DNA from: Ianthella basta
Lineage: Eukaryota; Porifera; Demospongiae; Verongiida; Ianthellidae
Direction of reading: 5' to 3'
Assembly (NCBI GenBank): GCA_964019415.1
Contig: OZ025890.1
Location: forward strand, 1,472,458 to 1,536,457
DNA length: 64,000 nucleotides
Below, piece after piece: positions 9,008 to 33,168 of this stretch. The translations under genes and the position numbers were made by a program. The notes below the pieces were generated by a model. That model had not been told where the DNA came from and searched no databases. It was given only the letters and a program-made list of their open reading frames with translations. Within the stretch, counting starts at the first letter, position 1; each line of letters begins with the position of its first letter.

Positions 9008-11019
9008 ATGCCCGTCCTTCATACAACAGAAGAACTAGCCCGCTTAAGGGGCCATCGCTGGCAGATATCTTGCCTAGAGTTCAGTCCGGACGGTAGCAAA
9101 CTTGCGTCTGGAGCATGGGACAAGGAGGTCCGTGTGTGGGACCTGGGCAGCCTGGACACGTCTGCAGTAATGAAACAGGTCCATGATGTTCCGATCACCA
9201 CTGTCTCGTGGTACCGCCCGGACGGAGCTCTGCTGGCGACAGGCTCCGCAGACTCCACCGTGGGACTGTGGAACGCTGAAACAGGAGAGAACCTCACTGT
9301 GATGCGGGAGCACTTCGGTTGGGTCCTAGGGAGCTCCTTCGCACCTGACGGTCGCTTCCTGGCCACTTCATCTTACGACAAGACGGTGCGGCTGTGGGAC
9401 CCTGCTAGCGGGATGCTCCTGAACACTCTCAATGCTCACACGAAGGGCGTGTGGTCTGTGGACTTCTATCCCGTCGGCAGCAGCACTCTCCTCTGCTCTG
9501 GGTCCGAAGATGCCACCGTACGGATATGGGATGCAAGGACCAACAAACCGGTGAACTGCTACAGAGGTGGGCACAAGGATGCCATCTTCTGCGTGTGCTG
9601 GTCTTCTGATGGCACGTACATTGCATCAGGATCCAGTGACACAAAGGTTTGAAGATATACAGCTGTAGCAGACATACACCAATGTGATTGTGCATGGGAT
9701 GGCATTCACCAATACCTCTTGTGATGGAAGTTAATACATGCACAACTCTAACAGCGTAGCAGCTAGCGCATGCCCGGCGGAACAGCCCAAACTGCCCAGA
9801 CCATGGTCTGTCCAGATTTTAGGCCTGGCCATTCGTTTGTATATCAAAGATACTTGCTGGCCTGTGCATGTGGCCATCTAGGTAAGATTGTCTTGATGTG
9901 GCCTGACCACCTTTAGAGCGCTTCCTCTAGGCCTATATAACTCATGCATTGCCTGCTTTTCAGGATATCCACTGTAAGAATGATGGAAAGAACTGTGACC
10001 TGTGTGTTTGTACATATTTTGTATTTATTTAGTGTGTGATCTTATTCATGTTTGCAAGAAGCTCATCTTTCGCTCACTGCCTGTGTACGTAGGTTGCTAT
10101 TTGGGATGCACGGAATGGCCAAGTTGTGAACTTTATCCATGGACACAAAGATACTGTCAAGTCAATTTCATTCAACAGGCAGACTGCAGAAGTGTGGGAG
10201 CCAATTTTGGCCTCGGCTGGGGATTTCACCATACGACTGTCTGACCCCCGACCTGACCAGAAAACTTACCTCATGCACCTTTCCCCACATGCACCTGGTA
10301 AGGAGGTGGAAGCTGTGGATATCTCTCCCGATGGCACCCTCCTTGCATCTGGTGGTCGTGATGGTGTGGTGGTACTCACAACACTGTTGACTCCTACTCT
10401 AACATCACAGTCATATTCTGAAGGGGCTTACGACCACTCCTCCTCAAAGGCCAACTCCTCCCATCAGCAAGGAGGCTCCGCCTTGCAGAACCAGCCTGAG
10501 GGCGAGGGAGAGGACATGGGGGATGAGATCATCCTTCGTACTGGATCTATTGTGAACAAACAAGCCCACCAAAGACATTCACTCCTAAGACGTCGAGGCC
10601 AGTCTGATCCTAAGGTTGGGTCCAAGCGGGGAGAACGATCTCCTACCAAGAAAGCACAGTCTAGTAGACAACAGGAAACAGAGTTGAAAATTCCTGTCCT
10701 TTTGACTGCAAATCGTGTAAGCCCTGAAGACTCTGCCGAAAGGGGTGAGGTTTCATTGACCATTCCCACAAAGATGGAGAGTTTGTCCACTGCTTCAAGT
10801 TCCCAGAGTGAAGGCCTGCCCACTATCCCTCCCTTCCCTGTACCCCTCCCTGACTTTGACTACTCCATGGATCGCCCTGTGTCAGTTGCCTCAGACCACT
10901 TCTTTGACACGGTTATTCACCCCGCGGGAGCAGACATTTGGACAACAGGAGCGCAGTACGTTCTTCAGCCTGACTCAGAGGATGATTTTGATGACGATGA
11001 ACCTGTTAGTGAAATATAA
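9008..11019 (+). CDS. WD40-repeat protein, two exons, 521 residues
   Basis: Exon 1 is 9008-9646 and exon 2 is 10093-11019; phase 0 join GSSDTK to VAIWDARNGQ. The N-terminal half is a WD40 propeller: repeats start at LRGHRWQISCLEFSPDG and recur about every 42 residues with GH and WD signatures (VRVWD, VGLWN, VRLWD, VRIWD, VAIWD, IRLSDPRP). About seven or eight blades are visible. From about residue 340 on, the protein is Ser/Pro/Glu-rich and probably disordered, ending in an acidic tail DSEDDFDDDEPVSEI. I cannot assign it to a named WD family; it is nearest in look to small WDR5/WDR38-like propellers with an added tail. An upstream in-frame ATG at 8951 is less likely, as its leader is Arg/Gly-rich. 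Exon 2 is the copy that was triplicated in this locus. Confidence 0.85.
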
Positions 11020-11536
11020 GTGGATAATGTTTATATGGTATATGTTTGTGTGTACATTGCAATCTGTACTGTTGTGTTTTATCACAGCATGTATACCAGT
11101 TTTCGTACCATTTGTTTGACATTGTACAGGTTTCCATATTATTTGTACACAAAATATTGTTAGTTCTATACATATGGCATTGTATGTGCTGGGTATTTAT
11201 ATCAGTTTGAATGAGTTGTGCATGGTGCCTTGGCATTAGGCCAATCTGTCCAGTTCAACACGATCACAACACATGTCTACTGTGATGTGTGTATTGGAAT
11301 GTGCATGCACATGCAGGTTATCATTTAATTGGTGTGATCAAAGAAGGCTGCATGAGCTTGGGTGTGTAGATTGATTGATTGATTGAAGGAAAGTGGACAC
11401 TGCACAAATAGCTAGGAGAAGTACGGTGTGTGTCGTGTGTAGACACCTCGCAGTCCCTTGTGTCCAAAATGTGTTGCAGTCCCCCAGTGTGCCTAAAATA
11501 TTATGCTAAAACCTTCTCCCCCCGTGGCCCAAAATG
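11020..11536. other. 3' flank of the WD40 gene
   Basis: Contains the 3' UTR of the WD40 gene; no further coding signal. Repeated almost unchanged in unit B (17689-18208). Confidence 0.6.
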
Positions 11537-12465
11537 GCAAACAAACAGACAAAATAAGCCTCGCCCAGAGCGTTGAGTTGAGCTGCAGACAAAATAAGCC
11601 CCGCCCAGAGTGTTTAGTCCAGCTACAGACAAAATAAGCCCCGCCCAGAGTGTTGAGTCCAGCTACAGACAAAATAAGCCCCGCCCAGTGCGTTGAGTCG
11701 AGCTACAGACAAAATAAGCCCCGCCCAGAGCGTTGAGTCCAGCTACAGACAAAATAAGCCCCGCCCAGAGCGTTGAGTCCAGCTACAGACAAAATAAGCC
11801 CCGCCCAGAGCGTTGAGTCCAGCTACAGACAAAATAAGCCCCGCCCAGAGCGTTGAGTCAAGCTACAGACAAAATAAGCCCCGCCCAGAGCGTTGAGTCA
11901 AGCTACAGACAAAATAAGCCCCGCCCAGAGCGTTGAGTGCAGCTACAGACAAAATAAGCCTCGCCCAGAGCGTTGAGTCCAGCTACAGACAAAGTAAGCC
12001 CCACCCAGAGCGTTGAGTCCAGCTACAGACAAAATAAGCCCCGCCCAGAGCGTTGAGTCAAGCTACAGACAAAATAAGCCCCGCCCAGAGCGTTGAGTCA
12101 AGCTACAGACAAAATAAGCCCCGCCCAGAGCGTTGAGTCGAGCTACAGACAAAATAAGCCCCGCCCAGAGCGTTGAGTCCAGCTACAGACAAAATAAGCC
12201 CCGCCCAAAGCGTTGAGTCAAGCTACAGACAAAGTAAGCCCCGCCCAGAGCGTTGAGTCCAGCTACAGACAAAATAAGCCCCGCCCAGAGCGTTGAGTCC
12301 AGCTACAGACAAAATAAGCCCCGCCCAGAGCGTTGAGTCCAGCTACAGACAAAATAAGCCCCGCCCAGAGCGTTGAGTCCAGCTACAGACAAAATAAGCC
12401 CCGCCCAGAGCGTTGAGTCAAGCTACAGACAAATAAGCCCCACCCAGAGCGTTGAGTCGAGCTAC
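11537..12465. repeat. 40-bp minisatellite with GC-box core, about 23 copies (unit A)
   Basis: Unit: agctacagacaaaataagcc followed by ccgcccagagcgttgagtcc. Differences are mainly at the last bases (tcc, tca, tcg, tgc) and single changes in the ccgccc core. One unit near 12430 is 39 bp. Each unit carries a CCCGCCC motif. No unique spacers, so it is not CRISPR-like. Confidence 0.97.
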
Positions 12466-12797
12466 CTACCAATTTGTATAGGGCCAGGGTGAGTGAAGTG
12501 AAGAATCAGTTTGAATGAGATGTGCATGCATATGGTGCCTTTGCATTAGGCCCAATCTGTTCTGTTCATCACACTCACATGACATGCCTATACTGTGTTA
12601 TGCATAACGTGTATTAGAATATGCATGCACAGGTTATATATCATTTGGTATGATTGAAGAAGGCTGAGCTGGGTGTGTAGATTGATTGAAGTACACTAGC
12701 TCCCATGTTTTATGTAATAGGCTTCAGGGGGAGAATAAAATGGACATTAGTGCCATTACGATCTACATTTCATGACAATTGGAATAGGAGCACAGGC

Positions 12798-12859
12798 AGT
12801 CTGGCTTGCTAGACCGACCACAATGGATGTTTATTTGGGATGGTCTTGCAAGCCAGACT
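12798..12859. repeat. Small foldback (inverted repeat), unit A
   Basis: AGTCTGGCTTGCTAGACC pairs with a right arm reading ggtcttgcaagccagact; 18-bp arms around a loop of about 26 bp. Also present in units B and C (best arms in C). Confidence 0.85.
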
Positions 12860-13211
12860 AGAGCACAGGAGAAGATAGACAATTAAAACACATTCACTGT
12901 TGGTTCTATTTATATATAAGTAGGATATCACAGACTTTATACAGATACAAAATACATTTTTACAGGTTACCTGTATAATATATAGACAAACAATGCACAG
13001 AAAACAATGAATAGAATGTCGTAGCAAATTCACATTGACCTTCTAAAGAAGTGATTCCAAAAATAACTAAGTGTTGGTATCATCAAAGTGGGCTACAGTA
13101 GAGACCCCTGGAACTGGGAAGGGATGAGAAGTAATGCTCAATCAGCACACAAGCATGCACATTGTCTATTTTGTATGTGTATATACCAATCCTTTGTGTT
13201 TTGCATAACAG

Positions 13212-15449
13212 TTACTGAAGGTAATGGTCAAGGTACTTCTCTGAGTTACCACTCTGATCATAGTCAGAAGTGTGAAAGAGTGATCTAGTGTGATTGACTA
13301 TATACCATGAACATGTACAGTACACACCCACACCCACAAACCCACACCCACCCACACCCACACCCACACACCCACACCCACCCACACCCACACCCACCCA
13401 CACACACATACACATGTGCACGCACACATACACATGCACACACGCATGCACACACACCTGGGAGAGGTAGTTGGCCATTTTCCACAATGCCATCGATATC
13501 TGTCAGTGACCCATCCTCCACAGCAGCAGACTCTGAAGTAGAATATACTCCATTGCAGCAACACACGGTACGGAGAATACTCTTGAAGAAGTCCTTAGTG
13601 TCATTGGTGCTTGCTATATCAGTTATGATGTAGAGGGGAGCTGCAACAACAAGCACACTGAGTAGGCACCACAAGTTGACTTTTACTGGGGTGAAAGTGG
13701 AGAGGACAAAGCTGGTACAGAAACCAGATGATATCCATGTCTGCCAGACGCTGAATGCTGTCTGCTTCTGGCTCCCTTTAGCAATGATACCTGTGAAGCC
13801 TAAAGAGCAATTGAGGGAGCAAGAGAGCAGTCAGTGCGGAGGAATTAGGATTGAAAGAGGAGGGATGAGGTGGCAGTAGGGCAGAATGTATCTGTATATT
13901 ATCTTACAGCAGCCCGCTAAACGACCACCTCTATAAGGCGACCACCTTAGAAATACGACCACTTTGGTTTAGTCCTATATCCGTGTATACATGAATTATG
14001 GTTCTCAGAAATAAGACCACCTCAAAAATCAGACCACTTTGCATGGCCCGAAGGTGGTCCTATTTCAGAGGTTCCAATGTATCATGTTTGTATCCCATAC
14101 ACATACTCTATTTATATTGCACAGTCATACAGTGCATGGAATAATTCTCAAAAGGTAACATGCAAGACTGCTTACTTGCAGGAACAGTGTTCCAAACTCC
14201 CATTCCTAAACCGAACACGATGGAGATGACAAACCCAGGAACATAGCTTGGGGCTCTCTCCCAGAAGATGAGGAAGAGGAGAACAGACAAGTCTCCAAGA
14301 GTGGCAACCAATACCAGTAATGTTCGCGGAATCTTGGTGGCCACCTTGCCCACCACCACGCTGCTTACACTGAGGCTCAGTCCCCACACAATCTGGGTCA
14401 AGCCCACCAGACCTACCCCAACGCACTCAGTCACAAAGTGCTGCATAGGTAAACAAATGACATATCAACACTCACATCTCACAAGGGCACAGTACGTTAC
14501 CTAGCCCGAAGGGGTGCTACTGTACCTTAAGGATTACTCCAGCAAGAGTCCCTATGTTGAATCCCAAATAGCCAACCATAGGTCCAGTGAGGAAGAAATG
14601 CCAGTTGAAGAGTGTCTTGAACAAGGTAGCAATAGACGTCTTGAACTCTTTAAAGATTCCAGAGCAGTTTCTCCTCTCCTGTGCCTTTTTAGAGAGCCGA
14701 TCTAATCCAAAGATGGCTAATACTACAGCAGCAATATCAAACATGCAGAAGATGGAAAGCAAGGAGTAGAACGCCCAGTCAGACACTTCTGCACCACTTT
14801 CAGTCAATGACATGCACATTGAACCGTTAGTCATATTTCCATCATCGACCATCAGCAACGAAAGACCCCCAGCATCGGACAACAACACAGCTGAGGAGAT
14901 GGCATTTCCAACTGGAACACTTGCGCCATAGATCATGAAGAAGACACCCATGAAAATGCTTATGTACTTTGGTGCTTGCTTCCCCAATGCTTGGGCTGTT
15001 TCTACTGCAATAGTGGTAACATAAATGGCTGAAGATATCCAGAGAGTCCCCAGCGACAACCCGCCTATGGCAGACCCGGGTATCAGGGTGTAGTAGTCGG
15101 GGTAGTAGTTGGTGGCTATGTACAAGACCTGGCCAATGCAGCAGAGAACAATAACGTACTTGGGTCCCAACATCCGGATTATGAAGGTGGCCATTATTGT
15201 AGAGACTATGAAGAACACGTAAAGAACTGCCAGAGCTACGAAGCCCAAGGTGGCATTAAAGGAGCCTTGGAGAGCTTGTAGCGTGAGGAAGGCGGCACTG
15301 ACCAAGTGAAAGCAGATACAAACCACGGCCAAGTTCTTGTAGTGGCGCTTTGGGTTGACACGAGTAGGTTGCCGCTTAATTTCGTCTTGGCGCTCACCGT
15401 CCGCCACCAAGCCATCATTTACTTTTCTCACTTCTACAGCCGAAGGCAT
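13212..15449 (-). CDS. UNC-93-like multipass membrane protein, copy A (538 residues)
   Basis: Exons 15449-14526, 14440-14176, 13799-13458 and 13297-13212; the sum is divisible by three and phases fit. I start at MPSAVEVRKVNDG because that ATG is shared by all three copies. A soluble N-terminus of about 35 residues leads into HYKNLAVVCICFHLVSAAF, the first membrane segment, followed by the family-typical LQGSFNATLGFVALAVLYVF and YYTLIPGSAIGGLSLGTLW. About 11-12 membrane segments in all, in two halves joined by the loop near LDRLSKKAQERRN. The family (UNC-93, a branch of the major facilitator fold) includes a regulator of a two-pore potassium channel in nematodes and UNC93B1, a trafficking partner of Toll-like receptors; which role applies here is unknown. 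The last exon gives a short tail ending KYLDHYLQ. A microsatellite sits just past the exon 3 donor. Confidence 0.85.
13319..13457. repeat. CA/CCCACA-rich microsatellite in UNC-93-like A intron 3
   Basis: Irregular cacacc/cacaca array filling the last intron of copy A. Equivalent arrays of other lengths are at about 20080-20250 (B) and 28850-28960 (C). Confidence 0.9.
13907..14079. mobile_element. TA-flanked MITE, 173 bp (unit A)
   Basis: Flanked by TA on both sides. The right end, read on the minus strand, is CATTGGAACCTCTGAAATAG and the left end CAGCAGCCCGCTAAACGACC; both then continue GACCACCT, so the ends are imperfect inverted repeats. Internal gaccacc/ggtggtc pairs fold the element. Unit C lacks it at the same place (gtacagcatatcatg). 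TA duplication suggests Tc1/mariner-type mobilisation. Confidence 0.75.
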
Positions 15450-15625
15450 GACCGACTTCACTCAGTTCGCATGAGGTCAGGGCTTTCTACGCCCTTTTTT
15501 CAAAAATTGAAAGGTCATGTGAATATCCTGATGAGAAGAGGGTTTTCTGCAGCGCGCGACTGTTTCCGCCGTTGTAGCTACCAGCCAGCGAGACACTTGT
15601 GATGAATTAAGGGCAATCTCTTATA
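15450..15625. promoter_or_regulatory. 5' flank of UNC-93-like copy A
   Basis: Upstream of the copy A start codon; nearly identical in unit B and partly diverged in unit C. It should include the promoter, but I see no defined element. Confidence 0.4.
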
Positions 15626-15745
15626 CAGTGCTCCAATCCTAAAGGTTCCACAATGTGTATCACAAATTGTTATTAATCATCACAGAGACACATTATCTCT
15701 TTTCCTCAAAATATAAAAAGAGGAACATTTAGGATTGGAGCATTG
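15626..15745. mobile_element. TA-flanked MITE, 120 bp (unit A)
   Basis: TA on both sides, with 24-bp terminal inverted repeats: CAGTGCTCCAATCCTAAAGG at left, and CAATGCTCCAATCCTAAATG at right on the minus strand, two or three mismatches. Absent from unit C, which reads cttatacactccgaaaat across the site. Confidence 0.85.
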
Positions 15746-16247
15746 TACATATATGTAGCTATTTCGAAAATCAGTTGAATCAGAATGTTCACAAACCATG
15801 GCTGCATGTCTGCTGAAATTCTCTCTGTTTAATATAGTGGTGTCAGTACTAGCAGGTCAGACATGTATCAACTCCAGTAACTGCAAGCAGCCTTGGGCTC
15901 CACTGCCATGCATGCAGATGCCAAACATGCCCCCGCTTGCATAATTATGCTACATTGATTATGTATGCAAACTGCTACTAATTCCAGCCCAATAGATACA
16001 TCTGGTGAGGCAATGTACAGCTGCACACGGATCATCATTCATTTGTATAATTCCTATCGATCCCGGCACTTCTTGCACTGTGCAGGTATGATGCTTCACA
16101 CATATAAATTCAGCTTCATATTAATTAAATATGCACGAACATATGCCTTTTTAATATATTCTGATCAATGCCAGGAACTCAAAGAGAATTATACCAACTG
16201 CATGGCGGTCATTATTTTCGTAATAATAATTGTCTTTTCGTAATTAT
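15746..16247. other. Duplicated spacer upstream of UNC-93-like A, no gene seen
   Basis: Matches 25972-26472 and, less well, 31015-31477. AT-rich; no ORF conserved among the three copies. Confidence 0.5.
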
Positions 16248-16325
16248 TTATTTGTGTTTCTTCTTTGGTTTTCTTGATGGCGGTGGGGTGGACTGAGTCA
16301 CCACAACATGTCCATCTTGAATATC
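16248..16325 (-). pseudogene. Relic of BRAP last exon, unit A
   Basis: Still reads the full 25-codon BRAP end (DIQDGHVVV...KPKKKHK, stop), but the splice acceptor G next to it is changed to A (TGCAG to TGCAA), and the preceding BRAP exon is missing from this unit. It therefore cannot act as a BRAP exon here. Confidence 0.8.
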
Positions 16326-16761
16326 TTGCATTGGCAGCAAGATGGAGACCACAAGAAAATTTGAAGACACTGCAGCTGATGACATGAAGTCATGAGGAAG
16401 GAGGCTGGTGAATCACTTGTATTACACACTCTTGCCTGATTGAATTAAATTGCTCCAATGTGACGTTATCGAAGGCCAGAGTGTTACTGTGTATATATAC
16501 AAGTGTTTTGGTATGGATGTACTCCTTCCATCTGTGTATATATATAACATGTATACACAGTATGAGTGTGCCCATACCCTACATTCCTTATCCACCTGCA
16601 TTCACGGGTTTCACTTGTATCCTGCACGTGTGCAAGAAAGTGTTTCTTGCACAATAGTAAAAAGGGCACCCGTTTACCTATGCTGGATGTGTATAACAAA
16701 AATCAATCTTATTTGCGTGTTTGCAAGAAGCTCATCTTTCGCTCACTGCCTGTGTACGTAG
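16326..16761. other. Junction region between units A and B
   Basis: Contains sequence like the BRAP intron at about 31556-31745 and then, directly joined, sequence like 32105-32150 (actccttccatctgtgt...cacagtatgagtgtg), so the BRAP penultimate exon was deleted. It then passes into sequence upstream of the WD40 exon 2 acceptor (tgtgtacgtag). Confidence 0.7.
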
Positions 16762-17688
16762 GTTGCTATTTGGGATGCATGGAATGGCCAAGTTGTGAAC
16801 TTTATCCATGGACACAAAGATACTGTCAAGTCAATTTCATTCAACAGGCAGACTGCAGAAGTGTGGGAGCCAATTTTGGCCTCGGCTGGGGATTTCACCA
16901 TACGACTGTCTGACCCCCGACCTGACCAGAAAACTTACCTCATGCACCTTTCCCCACATGCACCTGGTAAGGAGGTGGAAGCTGTGGATATCTCTCCCGA
17001 TGGCACCCTCCTTGCATCTGGTGGTCGTGATGGTGTGGTGGTACTCACAACACTGTTGACTCCTACTCTAACATCACAGTCATATTCTGAAGGCGCTTAC
17101 GACCACTCCTCCTCAAAGGCCAACTCCTCCCATCAGCAAGGAGGCTCCGCCTTGCAGAACCAGCCTGAGGGCGAGGGAGAGGACATGGGGGATGAGATCA
17201 TCCTTCGTACTGGATCTATTGTGAACAAACAAGCCCACCAAAGACATTCACTCCTAAGACGTCGAGGCCAGTCTGATCCTAAGGTTGGGTCCAAGCGGGG
17301 AGAACGGTCTCCTACCAAAAAAGCACAGTCTAGTAGACAACAGGAAACAGAGTTGAAAACTCCTGTCCTTTTGACTGCAAATCGTGTAAGCCCTGAAGAC
17401 TCTGCCGAAAGGGGTGAGGTTTCATTGACCATTCCCACAAAGATGGAGAGTTTGTCTACTGCTTCAAGTTCCCAGAGTGAAGGCCTGCCCACTATCCCTC
17501 CCTTCCCTGTACCCCTCCCTGACTTTGACTACTCCATGGATCGCCCTGTGTCAGTTGCCTCAGACCACTTCTTTGACACGGTTATTCACCCCGCGGGAGC
17601 AGACATTTGGACAACAGGAGCGCAGTACGTTCTTCATCCTGACTCAGAGGATGAGTTTGATGACGATGAACCTGTTAGTGAAATATAA
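16762..17688 (+). pseudogene. Orphan copy of the WD40 gene's last exon (open reading frame intact), unit B
   Basis: Same length as the functional exon (927 bp), with acceptor tacgtag, reading frame and stop all kept; only a handful of changes, such as R to W in VAIWDAWNGQ, I to T, Q to H and D to E. Exon 1, with most of the propeller, is not repeated upstream, so this cannot make a full WD40 protein by itself. It could be a dead copy too young to have decayed, or an alternative 3' exon reached by long-range splicing from 9646. No independent start codon with promoter is evident. Confidence 0.75.
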
Positions 17689-18218
17689 GTGGATAATGTT
17701 TATATGGTATATGTTTGTGTGTACATTGCAATCTGTACTGTTGTGTTTTATCACAGCATGTATACCAGTTTTCGTACCATTTGTTTGACATTGTACAGGT
17801 TTCCATATTATTTGTACACAAAATATTGTTAGTTCTATACATATGGCATTGTATGTGCTGGGTATTTATATCAGTTTGAATGAGTTGTGCATGGTGCCTT
17901 GGCATTAGGCCAATCTGTCCAGTTCAACACGATCACAACACATGTCTACTGTGATGTGTGTATTGGAATGTGCATGCACATGCAGGTTATCATTTAATTG
18001 GTGTGATCAAAGAAGGCTGCATGAGCTTGGGTGTGTAGATTGATTGATTGATTGAAGGAAAGTGGACACTGCACAAATAGCTAGGAGAAGTACGGTGTGT
18101 GTCGTGTGTAGACACCTCGCAGTCCCTTGTGTCCAAAATGTGTTGCAGTCCCCCAGTGTGCCTAAAATATTATGCTAAAACCTTCTCCCCCCGTGGCCCA
18201 AAATGGCAAACAAACAAA

Positions 18219-19253
18219 CAGACAAAATAAGCCTCGCCCAGAGCGTTGAGTTGAGCTGCAGACAAAATAAGCCCCGCCCAGAGTGTTTAGTCCAGCTACA
18301 GACAAAATAAGCCCCGCCCAGAGTGTTGAGTCCAGCTACAGACAAAATAAGCCCCGCCCAGTGCGTTGAGTCGAGCTACAGACAAAATAAGCCCTGCCCA
18401 GTGCGTTGAGTTGAGCTGCAGACAAAATAAGCCCCGCCCAGAGTGTTGAGTCCAGCTACAGACAAAATAAGCCCCGCCCAGAGCGTTGAGTCAAGCTACA
18501 GACAAAATAAGCCCCGCCCAGTGCGTTGAGTCCAGCTACAGACAAAATAAGCCCCGCCCAGAGCGTTGAGTCAAGCTACAGACAAAATAAGCCCCGCCCA
18601 GAGCGTTGAGTCAAGCTACAGACAAAATAAGCCCCGCCCAGAGCGTTGAGTGCAGCTACAGACAAAATAAGCCCCGCCCAGAGCGTTGAGTGCAGCTACA
18701 GACAAAATAAGCCTCGCCCAGAGCGTTGAGTCCAGCTACAGACAAAGTAAGCCCCACCCAGAGCGTTGAGTCCAGCTACAGACAAAATAAGCCCCGCCCA
18801 GAGCGTTGAGTCAAGCTACAGACAAAATAAGCCCCGCCCAGAGCGTTGAGTCAAGCTACAGACAAAATAAGCCCCGCCCAGAGCGTTGAGTCAAGCTACA
18901 GACAAAATAAGCCCCGCCCAGAGCGTTGAGTCGAGCTACAGACAAAATAAGCCCCGCCCAGAGCATTGAGTCGAGCTACAGACAAAATAAGCCCCACCCA
19001 GAGCGTTGAGTCGAGCTACAGACAAAATAAGCCTCGCCCAGAGCGTTGAGTCCAGCTACAGACAAAATAAGCCCCGCCCAGAGCGTTGAGTCGAGCTAGA
19101 CAAAGTAAGCCCCGCCCAGAGTGTTGAGTCCAGCTACAGACAAAATAAGCCCCGCCCAGAGCGTTGAGTCCAGCTACAGACAAAATAAGCCCCGCCCAGA
19201 GCGTTGAGTCGAGCTAGACAAAATAAGCCCCGCCCAGAGCGTTGAGTCGAGCT
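18219..19253. repeat. 40-bp minisatellite with GC-box core, about 26 copies (unit B)
   Basis: Same unit as the array in A. The first four units carry the same variants in the same order in both arrays, then the order differs and B is longer by about three units. Two units near 19090 and 19210 are shortened (gctagac in place of gctacagac). Confidence 0.97.
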
Positions 19254-19551
19254 ACCTACCAATTTGTATAGGGCCAGGGTGAGTGAAGTGAAGAATCAGT
19301 TTGAATGAGATGTGCATGCATATAGTGCCTTTGCATTAGGCCCAATCTGTTCTGTTCATCACAATCACATGACATGCCTATACTGTGTTATGCATAATGT
19401 GTATTAGAATATGCATGCACAGGTTATATATCATTTGGTATGATTGAAGAAGGCTGAGCTGGGTGTGTAGATTGACTGAAGGGGGAGAATAAAATGGACA
19501 TTAGTGCCATTACGATCTACATTTCATGACAATTGGAATAGGAGCACAGGC

Positions 19552-19617
19552 AGTCTGGCTTGCTAGACCGACCACAATGGGTGTTTATCTAATTGGGATG
19601 GTCTTGCAAGCCAGACT
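19552..19617. repeat. Small foldback, unit B
   Basis: AGTCTGGCTTGCTAGACC against ggtcttgcaagccagact, as in unit A, with a slightly longer loop. Confidence 0.85.
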
Positions 19618-19971: not shown

Positions 19972-20153
19972 CTAAAGGTAATGGTCAAGGTACTTCTCTG
20001 AGTTACCACTCTGATCATAGTCACAAGTGTGAAAGAGTGATCTAGTGTGATTGACTATATACCATGAACATGTACAGTACACACCCACACACCCACACAC
20101 CCACACCCACACACACCCACACAACCACACCCACCCACCCACCCACACACACA

Positions 20154-23100: not shown

Positions 23101-25675
23101 AATGCAGCATCGTTAGGGCTCTCATCAACAATACTGTTCAGACTTGCTGGTTTTCCTTCTGGGTGCTTACTCCTAAGCTCGTCAAGTACAGTCCATTCAT
23201 CCGTCTGCCCAGGGGGAGATTCTACCAGGCTGTGGGGTGACAGAGGGCCTCCGCCCTTATCCTCAGTAATGAGCTTAAGGGCAGCTTTAGTCCTCCCGCA
23301 GAACATTAAGCGAGCGAAAGCTCGACCTGTGTCAACTCTGTCTGCATGGCCTGCATTTCTCAGTCTTAACTGGATTGCTCTTCCCTCCTGAAGGAGGCTG
23401 TCAATGTCCCCTTCCTTCCACAGGCTGAGCCTTCTTTCAAGACATAAGGCATGATCCCTTGATTTGGACTTGGCATGGGGCTTCTGTAACATTAAGTGTG
23501 GAATGGTCATTGCAGCAGTAATGGCAATCTTCTCCATTGGCGATTTACTGCCGTACTCGCAAAATAATCGGGAGAGCTCATTTACAAACATCGTGCCAGC
23601 TTTGCCTGTCGGTACATTGAAGACATTTCTCCTCCACTTCGTGACTTCTTGGTAAGCTGCTCCTATTCTCCGACAGAATGTCGAGCCGTCAACTGCATTT
23701 CCCCAGGTGAAACTTGGGGATCTCATTTTCTCGAAGGGAGGGAGAGTCCGAACTGAATCATTGAGATTCGCGTCGATGTCATGCGCATTCCGCTGGTAAA
23801 CCGTACCATCGTCGGGATTCGGAATGGGTACACTGGCAGTATTCGTAGAAGGTTGATCGCTGCAGAGGTCTTGATCATTGCCTGAGGGTCTGTTCGAATC
23901 TTCGTTCTCACATCGTCCGTTTTTCGATGGGACGCATCCTGTACATTTCCTTCCATTCTTAACACATACACACTTTATACATCTACTGCTGATATTACAC
24001 GTACAGCAGGCAGGCATCTTTCGTCTCACTGCTTCAATTCTGCGTAATTGGTTTCTCAGGTCTGCACGCCATCATCCGCCATCATCCGCCATCTTTTCTC
24101 AAGTGAGATCAATGTATCTGTATATTATCTTACAGCAGCCCGCTAAACGACCACCTCTATAAGGCGACCACCTTAGAAATACGACCACTTTGGTTTAGTC
24201 CTAAATCCGTGTATACATGAATGATGGTTCTCAGAAATAAGACCACCTCAAAAATCAGACCACTTTGCATGGCCCGTAGGTGGTCCTATTTCAGAGGTTC
24301 CACTGTATCATGTTTGTATCCCATACACATACTCTATTTATATTGCACAGTCATACAGTGCATGGAATAATTCTCAAAAGGTAACATGCAAGACTGCTTA
24401 CTTGCAGGAACAGTGTTCCAAACTCCCATTCCTAAGCCAAACACGATGGAGATGACAAACCCAGGAACATAGCTTGGGGCTCTCTCCCAGAAGATGAGGA
24501 AGAGGAGAACAGCCAAGTCTCCAAGAGTGGCAACCAATACCAGTAATGTTCGCGGAATCTTGGTGGCCACCTTGCCCACCACCACGCTGCTTACACTGAG
24601 GCTCAGTCCCCACACAATCTGGGTCAAGCCCACCAGACCTACCCCAACGCACTCAGTCACAAAGTGCTGCATTGGTAAACAAATGACATATCAACACTCA
24701 CATCTCACAAGGGCACAGTACGTGACCTAGCCCGAAGGGGTGCTACTGTACCTTAAGGATTACTCCAGCAAGAGTCCCTATGTTGAATCCCAAATAGCCA
24801 ACCATAGGTCCAGTGAGGAAGAAATGCCAGTTGAAGAGTGTCTTGAACAAGGTAGCAATAGACGTCTTAAACTCTTTAAAGATTCCAGAGCAGTTTCTCC
24901 TCTCCTGTGCCTTTTTAGAGAGCCGATCTAATCCAAAGATGGCTAACACTACAGCGGCAATATCAAACATGCAGAAGATGGAAAGCAAGGAGTAGAACGC
25001 CCAGTCAGACACTTCTGCACCACTTTCAGTCAATGACATGCACATCGAACCGTTAGTTGCATTTCCATCATCGACCATTGGCGACGAAAGACCCCCAGCA
25101 TCGGACAACAACACAGCTGAAGAGATGGCATTTCCAACTGGAACACTTGCGCCATAGATCATGAAGAAGACACCCATGAAAATACTTATGTACTTTGGTG
25201 CTTGCTTCCCCAATGCTTGGGCTGTTTCTACTGCAATAGCGGTAACATAAATGGCTGAAGATATCCAGAGAGTCCCCAGCGACAACCCGCCTATGGCAGA
25301 CCCGGGTATCAGGGTGTAGTAGTCGGGGTAGTAGTTTGTGGCTATGTACAAGACCTGGCCAATGCAGCAGAGAACAATAACGTACTTGGGTCCCAACATC
25401 CGGATTATGAAGGTGGCCATTATTGTAGAGACTATGAAGAACACGTAAAGAACTGCCAGAGCTACGAAGCCCAAGGTGGCATTAAAGGAGCCTTGGAGAG
25501 CTTGTAGCGTGAGGAAGGCGGCACTGACCAAGTGAAAGCAGATACAAACCACGGCCAAGTTCTTGTAGTGGCGCTTTGGGTTGACACGAGTAGGTTGCCG
25601 CTTAATTTCGTCTTGGCGCTCACCGTCCGCCACCAAGCCATCATTTATTCTTCTCACTTCTACAGCCGAAGGCAT
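19972..25675 (-). CDS. UNC-93-like multipass membrane protein, copy B (537 residues)
   Basis: Exons about 25675-24752, 24666-24402, 20592-20251 and about 20057-19972. Nearly identical to copy A; differences include RRINDG for RKVNDG, SSPMVDDGNATNGS for SLLMVDDGNMTNGS, and a CAG-to-TAG change that removes the final Gln (ends LDHYL). All exons stay open and splice sites are kept, so it may be functional. Intron 2 is about 3.8 kb instead of about 0.4 kb, because a retroelement in the same orientation sits in it; correct expression requires splicing over that insertion. Same topology as copy A, about 11-12 membrane segments. Confidence 0.82.
20678..20693. repeat. Target-site duplication of the retroelement (3' side copy)
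   Basis: aatgtatctgtatatt, identical to 24111-24126; the empty site in unit A has a single copy at 13886-13901. Confidence 0.92.
20694..24110 (-). mobile_element. Non-LTR-type retrotransposon, about 3.4 kb, apparently full length
   Basis: Bounded by a perfect 16-bp target-site duplication, and missing from the matching intron of units A and C. No terminal repeats. The 5' UTR is about 80 bp with repeated atggcggatg-type units; one long ORF follows. The 3' UTR is about 175 bp and ends A/T-rich without a poly(A) tail. Orientation is the same as the host UNC-93-like gene. Confidence 0.88.
20868..24029 (-). CDS. Retroelement polyprotein: Cys-rich N-terminus, reverse transcriptase, zinc finger, candidate endonuclease (1053 residues)
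   Basis: Single uninterrupted ORF. Residues 7-40 are Cys-rich (CCTCNISSRCIKCVCVKNGR then CTGC). Reverse transcriptase motifs: GPSGIDASGW near 345, GVRPIGIGETVRRTIGKA near 405, LLADASNAFNCLNR near 460, EGTTQGDPLAMPMYALG near 510 and the catalytic box VWFADDGTAGG near 541-551. A C-terminal finger CICGNAFSVEHALSC is near 835, followed by RHNEIRD near 860. ARLDISANGFW and AFCDVRVFNP near 902-930 look like a PD-(D/E)XK core, as in the restriction-like endonucleases of R2/R4/CRE-type elements, but I cannot confirm this. No apurinic-type endonuclease or RNase H was seen. Proteins of this build are common in cnidarian and sponge genomes, from memory. The intact frame suggests recent insertion. Confidence 0.85.
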   Translation of the reverse strand: MRRKMPACCTCNISSRCIKCVCVKNGRKCTGCVPSKNGRCENEDSNRPSGNDQDLCSDQPSTNTASVPIPNPDDGTVYQRNAHDIDANLNDSVRTLPPFEKMRSPSFTWGNAVDGSTFCRRIGAAYQEVTKWRRNVFNVPTGKAGTMFVNELSRLFCEYGSKSPMEKIAITAAMTIPHLMLQKPHAKSKSRDHALCLERRLSLWKEGDIDSLLQEGRAIQLRLRNAGHADRVDTGRAFARLMFCGRTKAALKLITEDKGGGPLSPHSLVESPPGQTDEWTVLDELRSKHPEGKPASLNSIVDESPNDAAFHPVIFDNLDGKTIRETILRIQGSAGPSGIDASGWRRMCTSFSRASSDLCNNIALMARRLCTEYVDPEGLSSFTACRLIALDKNPGVRPIGIGETVRRTIGKAVLGILKEDVQRATGYIQLCAGQECGSEAAIHAMREVFSNDGNQGVLLADASNAFNCLNRRATLINIHTLCPPLARILTNTYRQQSSLFIGEEVVYSKEGTTQGDPLAMPMYALGILPLIQKLNTDATQVWFADDGTAGGKLDQIRLWWSNLNTIGPEYGYYPNAEKSWLVVKEEHLEAAERLFAGTGVNVTVEGKRYLGAALGTRSFVESYVMQKVEKWKSEIEKLSEIAKSQPHAAYSALTKGLSSRWNFLLRTVPNTADLMQPLEDAIRHLFIPALIGRQINDEERRIFALPCRMGGMGISNPVVRALSDFETSDRITSVMAALIVNQSTQYNTSTQQQLKEKRSISRREKWQKQKDDLDNLKEVLTASQQRSLSLAGEKGASTWLTALPIESMGFTLHKRAFRDAVFLRYGWTPPFLPTNCICGNAFSVEHALSCNRGAFPICRHNEIRDLTAELLSHVCYDTCLEPGLQKLNDERFQLRTANTDDNARLDISANGFWERSERAFCDVRVFNPFAPSNLKHPLESCYRLHEMEKRRQYDERVREVEHGSFTPLVFSTSGGMGRQATVFFKRLASLLARKRDQPYSHVIGWIRCRLGFSLLRSSITCLRGTRSIAGFVPSPTYPEALDLTISEGQVPLS
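24111..24126. repeat. Target-site duplication of the retroelement (5' side copy)
   Basis: Second copy of aatgtatctgtatatt, running directly into the intron sequence shared with unit A (atcttacagcagcccgc). Confidence 0.92.
24133..24305. mobile_element. TA-flanked MITE, 173 bp (unit B)
   Basis: Same element as at 13907-14079. Its right end on the minus strand is CAGTGGAACCTCTGAAATAG, closer to a CAGTGGAACC consensus than the copy in A. Confidence 0.78.
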
Positions 25676-25851
25676 GACCGACTTCACTCAGTTCGCATGA
25701 GGTCAGTGCTTTCTACGCCCTTTTTTCAAAAATTGAAAGGTCATGTGAATATCCTGATGAGAAGAGGGTTTTCTGCAGCGCGCGACTGTTTCCGCCGTTG
25801 TAGCTACCAGCCAGCGAGACACTTGTGATGAATTAAGGGCAATCTCTTATA

Positions 25852-25971
25852 CAGTGCTCCAATCCTAAAGGTTCCACAATGTGTATCACAAATTGTTATT
25901 AATCATCACAGAGACACATTATCTCTTTTCCTCAAAATATAAAAAGAGGAACATTTAGGATTGGAGCATTG
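25852..25971. mobile_element. TA-flanked MITE, 120 bp (unit B)
   Basis: Same element and same position as 15626-15745 in unit A. Confidence 0.85.
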
Positions 25972-26472
25972 TACATATATGTAGCTATTTCGAAAATCAG
26001 TTGAATCAGAATGTTCACAAACCATGGCTGCATGTCTGCTGAAATTCTCTCTGTTTAATATAGTGGTGTCAGTACTAGCAGGTCAGACATGTATCAACTC
26101 CAGTAACTGCAAGCAGCCTTGGGCTCCACTGCCATGCATGCAGATGCCAAACATGTCCCCGCTTGCATAATTATGCTACATTGATTATGTATGCAAACTG
26201 CTACTAATTCCAGCCCAAAAGATACATCTGGTGAGGCAATGTACAGCTGCACACGGATCATCATTCATTTGTATAATTCCTATCGATCCCGGCACTTCTT
26301 GCACTGTGCAGGTATGATGCTTCACACATACAAATTCAGCTTCATATTAATCAAAATTGCACGAACATATGCCTTTTTAATATATTCTGATCAATGCCAG
26401 GAACTCAAGAGAATTAAACTGACTGCATGGCTGCCATTATTTTCATAATAACAATTGTCTTTTCGTATTTAA

Positions 26473-26551
26473 TCATTTGTGTTTCTTCTTTGGTTTTTCT
26501 TGATGGCGGTGGGGTGGACTGAGTCGCCACAACATGTCCATCTTGAATATC
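26473..26551 (-). pseudogene. Relic of BRAP last exon, unit B
   Basis: The acceptor is kept (TGCAG), but one extra T in the ggtttttc run shifts the frame within the basic tail, and the original TAA is altered. The penultimate BRAP exon is missing from this unit. Confidence 0.8.
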
Positions 26552-26976
26552 CTGCATTAGCATCAAGATGGAGACCACAAGGAAATTTGAAGACACTGCA
26601 GCTGCAGCTGATGGCATGAAGTCATGAAGGAGACTGCTGAATCACTTGTATTACACATTCTTGCCTGATTGAATTAAATTGCTCCAATGTGACGTTATCG
26701 AAGGCCAGAGTGTATATACAAGTGTTTTGGCATGGATAACTTATGCACTCCTTCCATCTGTGTATATATACACAGTATGAGTGTGCTCATACCCTACATT
26801 CCTTATCCACCTGCATTCACGGGTTTCACTTGTATCCTACACGTGTGCAAGAAAGTGTTTCTTGCACAATAGTAAAAATGGCACCCATTTACCTATGCTG
26901 GATGTGTATAACAAAAATCAATCTTATTTGCGTGTTTGCAAGAATCTCATCTTTCGCTCACTGCCTGTGTACGTAG

Positions 26977-27843
26977 GTTGCTATTTGGGATGCACGGAAT
27001 GGCCAAGTTGTGAACTTTATCCATGGACACAAAGATGTATTGCCAAGTTATTTGCATTCAACAGGCAGACTGCAGAAGTGCGGGAGCCAATTTTGGCCTC
27101 GGCTGGGGATTTCACCATACGACTGTCTGACCCCCGTCCTGACCAGAAAACTTACCTCATGCACCTTTCCCCACATGCACCTGGTAAGGAGGTGGGGATA
27201 TCTCTCCCGATGGCACCCTCCTTGCATCTGGTGGTTGTGATGGTGTGGTGGTACTCACAACACTGTTGACTCCTACTCTATCATCACAGTCATATTCTGA
27301 AGGGGCTTAGGACCACTCCTCCCATCAGCAAGGAGGCTCCACCTTGCAGAACTAGCCTGAGGGCGAGGGAGAGGACATGGGGGATGAGATTATCCTTCGT
27401 ACTGGATCTATTGTGACCAAAGACAATTCACTCCTAAGACGTCGAGGCCAGTCTGATCCTAAGGTTGGGTCTAAGCGGGGAGAACGGTCTCCTACCAAGA
27501 AAGCACAGTCTAGTAGACAACAGGAAACAGAGTTGAAAACTCCAGTTCTTTTGACTGCAAAACGTGTAAGCCCTGAAGACTCTGCCGAAAGGGGTGAGGT
27601 TTCATTGACCATTCCCACAAAGATGGAGAGTTTGTCCACTGCTTCAAGTTCCCAGAGTGAAGGCCTGCCCACTATCCCTCCCTGACTTTGACTACTCCAT
27701 GGATCGCCCTGTGTCAGTTGCCTCGGACCACTTCTTTGACACTGTCATCCACCCCGCGGGAGCAGACATTTGGACAACAGGAGCACAGTACGTTCTTCAG
27801 CCTGACTCAGAGGATGATTTTGATGATGATGAACCTGTTAGCG
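26977..27843 (+). pseudogene. Degenerate copy of the WD40 gene's last exon, unit C
   Basis: Aligns with WD40 exon 2, but with a +2 shift near 27035 (gatgtattgcc for gatactgtc), a 7-bp loss near 27195, an in-frame stop at ggggcttag, loss of the Ser-rich stretch after it, and a loss of the PFPVPLP segment near 27680. The original stop region is replaced by gcgcggggatg. Clearly non-functional. Confidence 0.9.
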
Positions 27844-28792
27844 CGGGGATGATGCTTATATGGTGCATGCTTGTGTGTTGCAATCTGTTCTGTTGTGCTT
27901 TTTCAGAACGTGTATACCAGTTTTCTTACCATTTGTATGACTTTGTACAGGTTACCATATTATTTATACACAAAATACTATGAGTTCTATACAAGTCATA
28001 TAACATTGCAAGTGCATGCAGGGTATGGTGCCTTGCCATTAGGCCATATCTGTCCATTTCAACATGATCCCATGACATGTCTACTGTGTTATGTGTATTG
28101 GAATGTGTGACTTGTATGTGTTGAGCACAGCTTCCTTGTGGACGGACTTCATTGGAGCAGAATTCATAGAAGGCCTAGGCTGATGCATGTTGGCTCTTCC
28201 ACAAACAGTAGCATAGAGTGGTTGTAGGCATGTGTTCTGTGCATGCTTGCAGTACATGTACGTGTGTTTGTGCACTAGCTCTCTAAGCGCCGCTCCATAG
28301 TCGATCTGCATTTCATGACAATTGGACTAAGAGCACAGGTATAGTCTGGCTTGCTAGACTATCCCAAGTAAACTAGGTGTTTATAATTGGGATGGTCTAG
28401 CAAGCCAGACTAGAGCACAGGAGAAGATAGAAAATTAAAACACATTCACTCTTGGTTCTATTATAAATAGGATATCACAGATTCTATACAGATGAAAACT
28501 TTTAAAGAATACCTGTATAAATAGAAGAATAATGCACAGAAGACAATGAATAGCATGTTGTAGTGAGCTCACATTGACCTTCTAAAGAAGTGATTCCATA
28601 AAAAACTAAGTGTTGATATCATCGAAGTGGGCTACAGAATAGACCCCTGGAACTGAGAAGGGATGAGAAGTAATGCTCAATCAACACACAAGCACATTGT
28701 CTATTGTGCATACATTTATACCAATCCTTTGCTTTTTGCATAACAGAAGGTAATGGTCAAGGTACCTCTCTGTGTCACCACTCTGATCATAG
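27844..28792. other. Spacer between WD40 relic and UNC-93-like copy C
   Basis: Matches the flanks of the 40-bp array in A and B, but the array is absent. A foldback at 28343-28411 has the longest arms of the three copies: agtctggcttgctagac + tatcccaa against ttgggatggtctagcaagcc. No gene seen. Confidence 0.6.
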
Positions 28793-30782
28793 TCAGAAGT
28801 GTGAAAAGTGATCTATAATGTGATAAACTAGCATGCACATGCACATGTACACACCCACACGCCCACACCCACCCTCACATCCACACATGCGCACACCCAC
28901 ATCCACACATGCACGCATGCACACATACACACACACATGCACACACGCATGCACACACACCTGGGAGAGGTAGTTGGCCATTTTCCACAATGCCATCGAT
29001 ATCTGTCAGTGACCCTTTCTCCACAGCAGTAGACTCTGAAGTAGAATATACTCCACTGTAGCAACATACGATACGGAGAATACTCTTGAAGAAGTCCTTA
29101 GTGTCATTGGTGCTTGCTATATCAGTTATGATGTAGAGGGGAGCTGCAACAACAAGCACACTGAGTAGGCACCACAAGTTGACTCTTACTGGGGTGAAAG
29201 TTGAGAGGACAAAGCTGGTACAGAAACCAGATGATATCCATGTCTGCCAGACGCTGAATGCTGTCTGCTTCTGGCTCCCTTTAGCAATGATACCTGTGAA
29301 ACCTAAATAGCAAACGAGGGACCAATAGAGCAGTCAGTGCGGAGGAATTAGGATTGAAAGAGGAGGGATGAGGTGGCAGTAGGGCAGAATGTACGTAACA
29401 GTATATTATCGTACAGCATATCATGTATCCATACACATATTCTATTTATATTGCACATACAGTGCATGGAATAATTCTTAAGAAGTAGGACATGCAAGAC
29501 TGCTTACTTGCAGGAACAGTGTTCCAAACTCCCATTCCTAAGCCAAACACGATGGAGATGACAAACCCAGGAACATAGCTCGGGGCTCTCTCCCAGAAGA
29601 TGAGGAAGAGGAGAACAGCCAAGTCTCCAAGAGTGGCAACCAATACCAGTAATGTTCGCGGAATCTTGGTGGCCACCTTGCCCACCACCACGCTGCTTAC
29701 ACTGAGGCTCAGGCCCCACACAATCTGGGTCAAGCCCACCAGACCTACCCCAACACACTCAGTCACAAAGTGCTGCATTGGTGTAGAAAATGACATATCA
29801 ACACTCACTTCTCACAAGGGCACAGTACGTGACCTAGTCCGAAGGGGTGCTACTGTACCTTAAGGATTACTCCAGCAAGAGTCCCTATGTTGAATCCCAA
29901 ATAGCCAACCATAGGTCCAGTGAGGAAGAAATGCCAGTTGAAGAGTGTCTTGAACAAGGTAGCAATAGACGTCTTAAACTCTTTAAAGATTCCAGAGCAG
30001 TTTCTCCTCTCTTGTACCTTTTTAGAGAGCCGATCTAATCCAAAGATGGCTAATACTACAGCGGCAACATCAAACACGCAGAAGATGGAAAGCAAGGAGT
30101 AGAACGCCCAGTCAGACACTTCTGCGCCACTTTCAGTCAATGACATGCACATCGAACCATTAGTTGCATTTCCATCATCGACCATTGGCGACGAAAGACC
30201 ACCAGCATCGGACAACAACACAGCTGAAGAGATGGCATTTCCAACTGGAACACTTGCACCATAGATCATGAAGAAGACACCCATGAAAATACTTATGTAC
30301 TTTGGTGTTCGCTTCCCCAATGCTTGGGCTGTTTCTACTGCAATAGTGGTAACATAAATGGCTGAAGATATCCAGAGAGTCCCCAGCGACAACCCGCCTA
30401 TGGCAGACCCGGGTATCAAGGTGTAGTAGTCGGGGTAGTAGTTTGTGGCTATGTACAAGACCTGGCCAATGCAGCAGAGAACAATAACGTACTTGGGTCC
30501 CAACATCCGGATTATGAAGGTGGCCATTATTGTAGAGACTATGAAGAACACGTAAAGAACTGCCAGTGCTGCGAAGCCCAAGGTGGCATTAAAAGAGCCC
30601 TGGAGAGCCTGTAGCGTGAGGAAGGCGGCATTGACCAAGTGAAAGCAGATACAAACCACGGCCAAGTTCTTGTAGTGGCGCTTTGGGTTGACACGAGTAG
30701 GTTGCCGCTTAATTTCGTCTTGGCGCTCACCGTTCGCCACCAAGCCATCATTTACTTTTCTCTCTTCTACAACTGGCGGCAT
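28793..30782 (-). CDS. UNC-93-like multipass membrane protein, copy C (516 residues)
   Basis: Exons 30782-29859, 29772-29508, 29302-28961 and 28812-28793; exon lengths 924, 265 and 342 are the same as in copies A and B. Starts MPPVVEERKVNDG; about 95% like copies A and B over the membrane part. A one-base loss in the last exon (gtgaaaagtg for gtgaaagagtg) shifts the tail, so the protein ends DHFSHF, about 22 residues short of A. The membrane domain is untouched, so function may be kept with a different C-terminus, which often carries sorting signals. Confidence 0.82.
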
Positions 30783-31477
30783 GGTTGATTGACAATGGGC
30801 TGATACTTTCCACAAGACAGCTCCTAAAGGTCTTTGCGCCCCTTGAGGTTTTCTGCTATGGTAACGTCATCTATGGTATTGCGCAACTGCCTGGCTCGCG
30901 AGAATTTCTGCAACGCACGTCTGTTTCCTCCGGCCGTACGCGTTGTAGCTATTTGCCACACCATAGAGTCTACACAGCGAGACTCTTGCGATGAATTAAG
31001 GGAATCTCTTATACACTCCGAAAATCCGTTGAATCAGAATGTATGTGTGCATAGTTGCATGTCTGCTGTTCAAAACTCCAATAATAATACAGTAGCTACA
31101 GTGCTAGCTGGTCAGACATGCATCAGCTCCGGCAACTGCAGTCTCGGGCTCCACTGTCAAATGCCAAACTTGCCACCACGTGTATATGCTACATTGATTA
31201 TGTATGCAAACTGCTAATTCCAGCCCAAAAGGATCTGATGTGGCAACAGCTGCACACAGATCACTATTCAATTTGTAATTCCTATCATTCCCGGCATTTC
31301 TTGCACTGTGCAGGTATGCAATGCTTCACACATACAAACTCAGCTTCATATCAATTAAAACTGCATGAATGCATTCCTTTTTGATGTATTCTGATCAACG
31401 CCAGGAACTCAAGAAGAATTAAACTGACTGCATGGTTGCTGTCATTTTCATAAAAATCATTGTCTTCTCGTAATTAT

Positions 31478-33168
31478 TTATTTGTGTTTCTTCTTTGGTT
31501 TTCTTGATGGCGGTGGGGTGGACTGAGTCACTACAACATGTCCATCTTGAATATCCTGCATTGGCATCAAGATGGAGACCACAAGGAAGACACTGATGAC
31601 ATGAAGTCATGAGGAAGGAGACTGCAGAATCACTTGTATTACACACTCTTGCCTGATTGAATTAAACTGCTCCAATGCTTCGACGTCATCAAAGGCCAGA
31701 GTGTACATACAAGTGTTTTGGCATAGATAACTTATGTAAGTACCCAGCCATGAAAGATAACGTTGGCATCAAATCAATTCAGGACACTTCTCTAATGAGG
31801 GGCAGAGTGTACTGTTCCAGCTACAAAGAGATGTGTACAAAACTACCTTTGAAGTATAGACACCACTCTCTTATCTGCACACTTGGGCCTGTCCTAACTA
31901 TCCCATAGGTAGGTGCTGGAATGGAGAGCTGTCGCTGTAGCTTGCTGCACAAAGACACTCATGCTGACTGACCTGTTTCATCCCGTCAGTTGCACTAGCC
32001 ACCTTCTTCTGAGTGTCAAGGTAGAACATGAGGTCCCCTACTTGTGCCTGGAGCTCTTGAATCTCCTGCATGTGAGGTATGCGCCGCACACATACACACT
32101 GTTCACCCACTCCTTCCATCTGTGTGCACAGTATGAGTGTGTGCATACAGCCAAAACTCCTTATTCTCCCCCGATCCAACCTAATTCCTCTTTCCCCATC
32201 TCTTCTCTCTCCCACCTCTCCCTCTCCTTTTTCCTTCCCCTCTTCTGTCCCTTGCTTTCTCACAAACCTTATCTTTCTTAGTGACAGCGTCCTCCAACTT
32301 CTCCTCCAGAAAGGAGCAGTGCTTCCTCCATTTGTCCTGGTTAGCAGTTAATGCTTTATTCAGCTATAGATAGAAAGACAGTAATCATTATGTACTTGTG
32401 TGAAATACCCACCACACCCACATGGACACGCACAGACACATATGTACACACACACACACACACATGCACACGCACACATACACACACACATACAAACACA
32501 CACACGCGCCATCCACATAGCTCACCTCTTTTTCCACCTCTAAAGACTCGCCCTCCTTGTCAACTTTACACTGTAGAGCAGCAATCTTCTTCTCCAAAGC
32601 CTTCTTCTCCCTATCCAGCCCTGACACCCGCACCTCAAGCTTCTCTACTTCAGCCACAGCAGACTTGCATCTACACTCTGCTAACTCAATCTGGAAGAAA
32701 ATGAAGTGACCTTATCAAAGAACGGACCACCTTGCAACAACAGAAGGGGTGCACCTTACACAGACCTGCTCATTGGCTGCAGTCTCCACTCTGGTAAGCT
32801 TCTCCTCAAAGTAGACCCTCTGGGACTCAAGCTGATTTGTGAGCAGGAAGGTGTACTCCAACTGGAGCGAGTCCAGCTTCTCTTCATAGCCCACCTGTGG
32901 GGAGGAGGGAGGGGAGGGAAGGTCAAGAAGAGAGAGAGGGTGTGAGGGAAGGTAGGGGAGGAGGAAGAGGGTTTGGGGGGAAGTTAGGGAGAGGGAGAGA
33001 GAGCATTAACGAAATCCTCTATCGTCTGTACATCTGCCAGGTCTCAGCTGAGCAGCTCACCCCCGGCACACTGCCAGGTCCCTCCACCTCCACCAGTTTC
33101 CCATCACTTTTATTCTGCACCAGACGGTGGACGTAATTATCTGTCAATAATAGGTGTGAATATATGTG

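Follow-up and report, generated by a model that had tools for sequence, protein, structure and literature searches.

A tandem array in the genome of the demosponge Ianthella basta carries three copies of a gene encoding a predicted UNC-93-like transporter. We analyzed this array in a window of 64,000 bp on contig OZ025890.1 (C23:1472458-1536457) and searched the 209-Mb genome, in 96 contigs, for related sequences; coordinates are window positions unless a contig is named. With a probability of roughly 0.86, the array arose by tandem segmental duplication in two steps, which left the two neighboring genes, a WD40 gene and BRAP, whole at the outer edges and tripled the UNC-93-like gene. The original prediction, made from the letters of the window, had placed the breakpoints of the block within these two convergent neighbors and had proposed duplication in place. 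Both proposals are supported by the continuity of splicing and reading frame at the outer edges, by the damage to the inner exon copies, and by the junctions that the units share.

Layout of the units and of their genes

Three direct units, A (10039-16705), B (16706-26920), and C (26921 to ~32170), were delimited by self-comparison of the window (large matches, E = 0) and by a three-way alignment from which the insert of B was excluded. Each contains the last exon of the WD40 gene on the plus strand and, on the minus strand, a four-exon UNC-93-like gene together with the BRAP last exon. The two comparisons agree on the three direct three-gene units previously proposed at this place. Homology on the WD40 side begins within about 10 bp of 10039 and is traceable on the BRAP side to ~32165-32175, close to the right edge of 32160 given earlier. 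Unit B is longer than the others because a 3.4-kb long interspersed nuclear element (LINE) sits in intron 2 of its UNC93 gene.

The UNC-93-like gene is composed of exons of 924, 265, 342, and 47 nt (1578 nt including the stop codon). All three copies are open over 525 codons with identical splice positions; that all three would be open had been anticipated in the original prediction. In unit A (13067-15449, minus strand), the exons lie at 15449-14526, 14440-14176, 13799-13458, and 13113-13067; in unit B (19824-25675, minus strand), at 25675-24752, 24666-24402, 20592-20251, and 19870-19824; and in unit C (28606-30782, minus strand), where the exon lengths are equal, at 30782-29859, 29772-29508, 29302-28961, and 28652-28606. 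A search of the genome gave three near-identical UNC93 copies. The 525-aa protein of unit A matches the UNC-93 family profile PF05978 over residues 64-450 with 45 bits (cut-off 22.9). In a structure search, UNC93B1 (7c77, 7c76, and 7cyn) was the sole molecule retrieved at E values up to 0.1, with a best E of 1e-10. It is the nearest solved relative but a remote one, the best stretch covering about 70 residues. Members of the UNC-93 family act in Toll-like receptor trafficking and in channel regulation; the likeness to UNC93B1 does not imply either role for the predicted sponge transporter. A long GT-rich repeat that varies among the copies begins right at the exon-3 donor (13457, 20250, and 28960; CCAG|gtgtgt...). 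A C-terminus made variable by this repeat was considered and ruled out: the donor stands at the repeat start, and in all three copies a last exon of 47 nt maintains the frame.

At the left edge, the WD40 gene is continuous with unit A. Its penultimate exon (8936-9646, plus strand, 5' edge approximate), which contains five WD40 stretches according to Pfam, is open from 8936 and has its donor after 9646; it joins in a single frame the exon 10093-11019 and its stop. This last exon of unit A (10093-11022, plus strand; WD40 39 bits) encodes 308 amino acids and then a stop, positions 11020-11022 following or including the stop. The intact gene thus uses the left-most exon, as had been proposed. The copy in unit B (16762-17691, plus strand) is an open orphan with four amino acid differences from A; upstream of it lie the A/B junction and no WD40 exon. 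The copy in unit C (26977-27870, plus strand, 3' edge approximate) is a dead relic, with frameshifting indels, two stops in the frame of A, and the stop codon lost. Its five indels are a 2-bp insertion and deletions of 7, 18, 12, and 17 bp, and its proportions of silent and replacement differences are 0.072 (pS) and 0.034 (pN). The view of the inner WD40 copies as orphans or relics is therefore borne out. Among 40 scored candidates out of 272, the WD40 last exon was found at three places in the genome. Within the WD40 intron, about 100 bp to the left of the duplication edge, the segment 9769-9934 is a high-copy dispersed repeat present in at least 37 other places.

At the right edge, the nine mapped exons of BRAP run from 33923 to 31478 on the minus strand, in a single frame that ends in the last exon of unit C (31555-31478). 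The upstream exons (31973-33923, mapped as far as 33923) join this exon in frame and encode RING and zf-UBP domains and a coiled-coil-like part. Scores reached 27.8 bits for zf-RING_2 (cut-off 27.3) and 85.1 bits for zf-UBP, and the coiled coil was read by eye. BRAP, the BRCA1-associated protein, carries an N-terminal BRAP2 domain, and its RING is followed by zf-UBP and then by a coiled coil; the sponge product agrees with the succession of RING, zf-UBP, and coiled coil. BRAP accordingly takes its last exon from the right-most unit, and its inner copies are orphaned, two further points in which the earlier reading was right. In unit A (16248-16325, minus strand), the coding letters are kept, the acceptor is unlike that of C, and no BRAP exon lies upstream; in unit B (26473-26551, minus strand, 3' edge approximate), a one-base length difference shifts the frame. 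Both copies are without the penultimate exon: a segment of about 365 bp that holds it is present in C and, read by eye, missing from A and B.

Divergence, junctions, and the proposed two steps

At the positions compared, A and B are 96-100% identical in most 100-column bins of the alignment; identity is lower on the BRAP side, at the GT repeat, and in parts of a minisatellite. Relative to both, C diverges by about 1-9% in coding bins, and its non-coding bins are more divergent. For UNC93, synonymous divergence (dS) is 0.032 between A and B, 0.080 between A and C, and 0.058 between B and C; the A and B copies are distinguished by some 25 nucleotides (about 25). Across the unit, 609 sites group A and B against C, 51 group B and C against A, 37 group A and C against B, and at 5 all three differ. 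From these values and site patterns it follows that C split first from the ancestor of A and B, and that B arose later. Because the distance between A and B is far smaller than that of either to C, we count two events: the triplication of the original prediction stands as to three tandem units, and a single triplication event is ruled out by the unequal divergences. The ages of two genes agree, the dS of 0.080 between the UNC93 copies of A and C comparing with a silent difference of 0.072 in the WD40 relic.

Both inner junctions consist of the same foldback-element fragment between BRAP-intron and WD40-intron sequence, as established by sequence comparison. The A/B junction lies at 16601-16706 and the B/C junction at 26816-26921 (edges approximate, without assigned strand). 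They are 97.6% identical over 209 bp, as unequal exchange within a two-unit array gives, and both differ from the outer flanks. The insert amounts to about 105 bp of a dispersed family found in at least 18 places outside the window. A complete element is about 487 bp long with a long inverted symmetry, as judged from six loci, one of them interrupted, whose alignments start within about 10 bp of one point. At the junctions, the BRAP-facing end of the fragment coincides with this common point, and its WD40-facing end is truncated. A small difference in length at the extreme left of the unit groups B and C against A; it would fit an exchange point there, a reading that draws on few sites.

We infer the order of the steps and the unequal exchange from the divergence of the units and from their junctions. 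In step 1, a block whose left end lay in the last mapped WD40 intron (~10040) and whose right end lay in a BRAP intron close to the 3' end of that gene (~32170) would have been duplicated in place, creating a junction of BRAP intron, foldback-element fragment, and WD40 intron. Because the two neighbors are convergent across the block, an intact WD40 gene remains with the left unit and an intact BRAP with the right unit, and the UNC-93-like gene alone is duplicated in full. Exon copies left without a use would then have decayed. In a later step 2, unequal exchange in the two-unit array would have added B, a second left-type unit, and copied the junction too. Purifying selection would have kept the transporters of A and C intact.

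Two further sequences distinguish the units. The LINE of unit B (20694-24110, minus strand), in the same orientation as UNC93, contains an ORF (open reading frame) of 1067 aa whose reverse transcriptase match (27.6 bits) is just below the Pfam cut-off of 29.6. The cysteine-rich start of the element may have a likeness to sponge proteins. It is flanked by a 16-bp direct repeat (20678-20693 and 24111-24126), and the corresponding empty site is found in unit A. Several long copies elsewhere in the genome are 97-99% identical, hence recent movement of this family. Disruption of the B transporter by the 3.4-kb insert was ruled out, since the insert lies within intron 2 and the four exons are still open. 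A 40-bp minisatellite, identified by self-comparison and without assigned strand, separates the convergent 3' ends of WD40 and UNC93 in units A (11545-12465) and B (18218-19255); neither the self-comparison nor the three-way alignment contains a match to it in unit C.

Selection on the transporters and alternative explanations

The dN/dS ratios of UNC93 are 0.35 for A-B (Fisher p 0.016), 0.28 for A-C (p 6e-6), and 0.28 for B-C (p 8e-5). Branch A has 8 silent and 8 replacement codons (ratio 0.31, p 0.03), and the branch separating C from A and B has 18 and 16 (ratio 0.28, p 0.0003). Within unit C, the 1578 nt of UNC93 contain no indel, against five in the 930 nt of the WD40 relic (conditional P 0.007). 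Together, the ratios and the indel contrast indicate that purifying selection kept the A and C transporters intact, and selective retention of these two copies is thus supported by the pattern of substitutions and indels. In each unit one gene is kept and the neighboring exon copies are free to decay; the relics consequently provide a local neutral yardstick for selection on the amplified gene. Retention for dosage, rather than for slightly different functions, may be one possibility among several. Three features weigh on it. Immediately upstream of UNC93, C gives a poor alignment with A and B, partly due to a short segment whose ends are inverted, seen by eye in A and B only; copy A has eight private amino acid changes; and a control family also forms many tandem clusters in this genome. 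At three of the eight private residues of A (206, 478, and 479), the UNC-93 paralogue on contig C12 is informative, and at 3/3 it agrees with B and C, so that A is the changed copy there. Positive selection on copy A was ruled out by the ratio of 0.31 on its branch.

Several observations nevertheless weigh against the two-step history with selective retention. Branch B has only 2 silent and 3 replacement codons (ratio 0.47, p 0.34), and the original prediction had named a dN/dS near 1, combined with a lack of transcripts from copies B and C, as refuting it. The ratios of the three pairs are well away from this value, whereas branch B alone, with five changed codons, is compatible with neutrality. 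The three transporters might then be merely young and unselected, open for lack of time, in a genome where tandem clusters are common (of 64 sulfotransferase matches, 48 have another within 20 kb). The low ratios of A-C, B-C, and branch A, and the indel-free UNC93 of C next to the five indels of the WD40 relic, make this rather unlikely. The tree of exon-1 proteins is also discordant, joining A with C and placing B outside (95/72, not starred), the branch concerned amounting to about one residue. In the UNC93 exons, 19 changes are private to A and 5 to B (p 0.007), the rest of the unit counting 32 and 32; this could reflect conversion involving B and C, or a higher rate of change in A. This excess (Fisher p 0.016 between the two regions), the discordant tree, and the surplus in the UNC93 exons of sites at which B equals C against A, nine of them in the bin 14789-15038, would be expected if gene conversion, and not recent duplication, kept the UNC93 copies alike. 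We consider such concerted evolution improbable: the likeness of A and B spans most of the unit, beyond UNC93, the silent divergence of UNC93 between A and C is close to that of the WD40 relic, and the C12 paralogue sides with B and C at the three informative residues. Finally, the non-coding divergence of C reaches ~11-18% in several stretches, above its silent divergence, partly because of indels and poor alignment.

In the assembled sequence, a dS of 0.03 between A and B, with a LINE in only one of them, is of the kind that two alleles of a diverse animal could show. The assembler might therefore have joined two haplotypes of one unit end to end, the true array having two units (A/B and C). 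This is very unlikely, as a real B allele would follow the WD40 intron, but B instead follows an element-bearing junction, like C. Moreover, a letter private to B stands 74 bp from the edge, which means that a false join must fall on the unit boundary with little supporting overlap. A last difficulty for the two-step history concerns the junctions: the outer flanks lack the element, and step 1 is therefore not fully explained. Recombination between two foldback-element copies, located in the WD40 intron and the BRAP intron respectively, could account for the ~105 bp of the family at both inner junctions, beginning at its common end on the BRAP side. We regard it as distinctly unlikely, because two family members, searched against the window, matched only the two junctions above noise, the fragment is truncated instead of forming a whole hybrid element, and no match between the two breakpoint introns, when compared, exceeded 8 bp. 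Two other possibilities fit equally: a break within an element that was present on one homologue, and end-joining repair that captured a fragment.

Other UNC-93 clusters and comparable arrays

The array suggests that UNC-93-like transporters have expanded in clusters in this genome. PF05978 matched 21 places, 19 of them on contig C23: the triplet, six at 4.82-4.86 Mb, and ten at 5.30-5.35 Mb; the others are on C12 and C7. In a tree of 20 of the 21 matches, which left out a partial one at C23:4841707 and carried a long-branch warning, the triplet groups with the C12 member (100/100) and the other clusters with the C7 member. The ten 5.3-Mb members form one set (98/99) and the 4.8-Mb members do not. 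This grouping makes the triplet and the ten 5.3-Mb members products of separate amplifications, and the 4.8-Mb cluster may represent an older stock. In the latter region (C23:4815001-4865000), the listed stretches of the six-match cluster are ~68-86% alike, and one member is on the opposite strand.

Inside the 5.3-Mb cluster, the 3' portion of a flanking gene occurs repeatedly. The segments C23:5289758-5291344 and 5291550-5293643 recur at 5315140-5316672 and 5316537-5318633 (94 and 98%), and 5289758-5290467 occurs a third time at 5328452-5329131, whereas 5286001-5289757 has no recurrence within the 70 kb examined. Ten chosen ORFs were scanned for domains, after removal of low-complexity ORFs and of those shorter than 110 aa. 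The upstream exon at the outer edge matched mit_SMPDase (SMPD4-like) with 53.5 bits, and the repeated C-terminal SMPD4-like exon scored 23.6 and 23.2 bits, just below the cut-off of 23.7. The architecture of this cluster resembles that of the triplet array. Blocks in C23:5286001-5356000 are up to 96-99% alike, a neighboring ORF without Pfam match is also repeated, and 2 of the 10 UNC-93 matches have an internal stop.

One control family, the sulfotransferases (PF00685), was used to judge clustering. Once matches less than 1 kb apart were merged, 45 of 62 lay within 20 kb of another, compared with 19 of 21 for UNC-93. Tandem clusters are thus not specific to UNC-93 in this genome, and clustering peculiar to that family was ruled out. 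The sulfotransferase clusters are on C1, C3, C4, C7, C19, and C23, with six matches at C23:365-375 kb. The three C23 clusters, with at least two separate amplifications, could reflect recurrent selection for more UNC-93-like copies, the block in both amplifications having clipped a neighbor near its 3' end and left it to survive at the edge, but we hold this to be doubtful. If true, it would suggest a "harmless breakpoint" rule, by which a duplication persists if it breaks within the 3' parts of the neighbors, leaving the outermost copy of each neighbor whole.

The closest known case is that of the CUP1 arrays of yeast, by analogy with which the sponge gene would have been multiplied by an already known route. 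According to excerpts from a study of these arrays (PMC4232551), each repeat of the Saccharomyces cerevisiae S288c type has a terminal piece of RSC30 (YHR054C), with a complete RSC30 at one end of the array; copy number shifts by unequal crossing over and is selected by copper. As in these descriptions of CUP1, the sponge units are direct and tandem, the enclosed gene is complete in each, and every unit has a fragment of a flanking gene whose complete copy stands only at the outer edge, here for both WD40 and BRAP. Unlike the S288c type as described there, in which one neighbor is clipped, the sponge array clips both, in introns near their 3' ends, and it consists of three units of unequal age with a mobile-element fragment at the junction. 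In a population sample of Drosophila yakuba, again from excerpts (PMC5460883), some tandem blocks hold whole genes and others shuffle gene parts. RNA-seq as presented in these excerpts gave little evidence of expression change after whole-transcript tandem duplication, which calls for caution with the dosage reading. These duplications, as described, differ from the sponge array in being population variants. Searches for papers on UNC93 in sponges, metazoan evolution, and tandem expansion retrieved none that describes such an expansion, judged by titles and the beginnings of abstracts.

Beyond the array, the window contains a further direct duplication at 59813-62423, diverged and 77-82% alike by self-comparison. 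A 693-aa ORF rich in Arg, Ser, and Glu at 36012-38093 contains repeats with a DNA period of ~159 bp.

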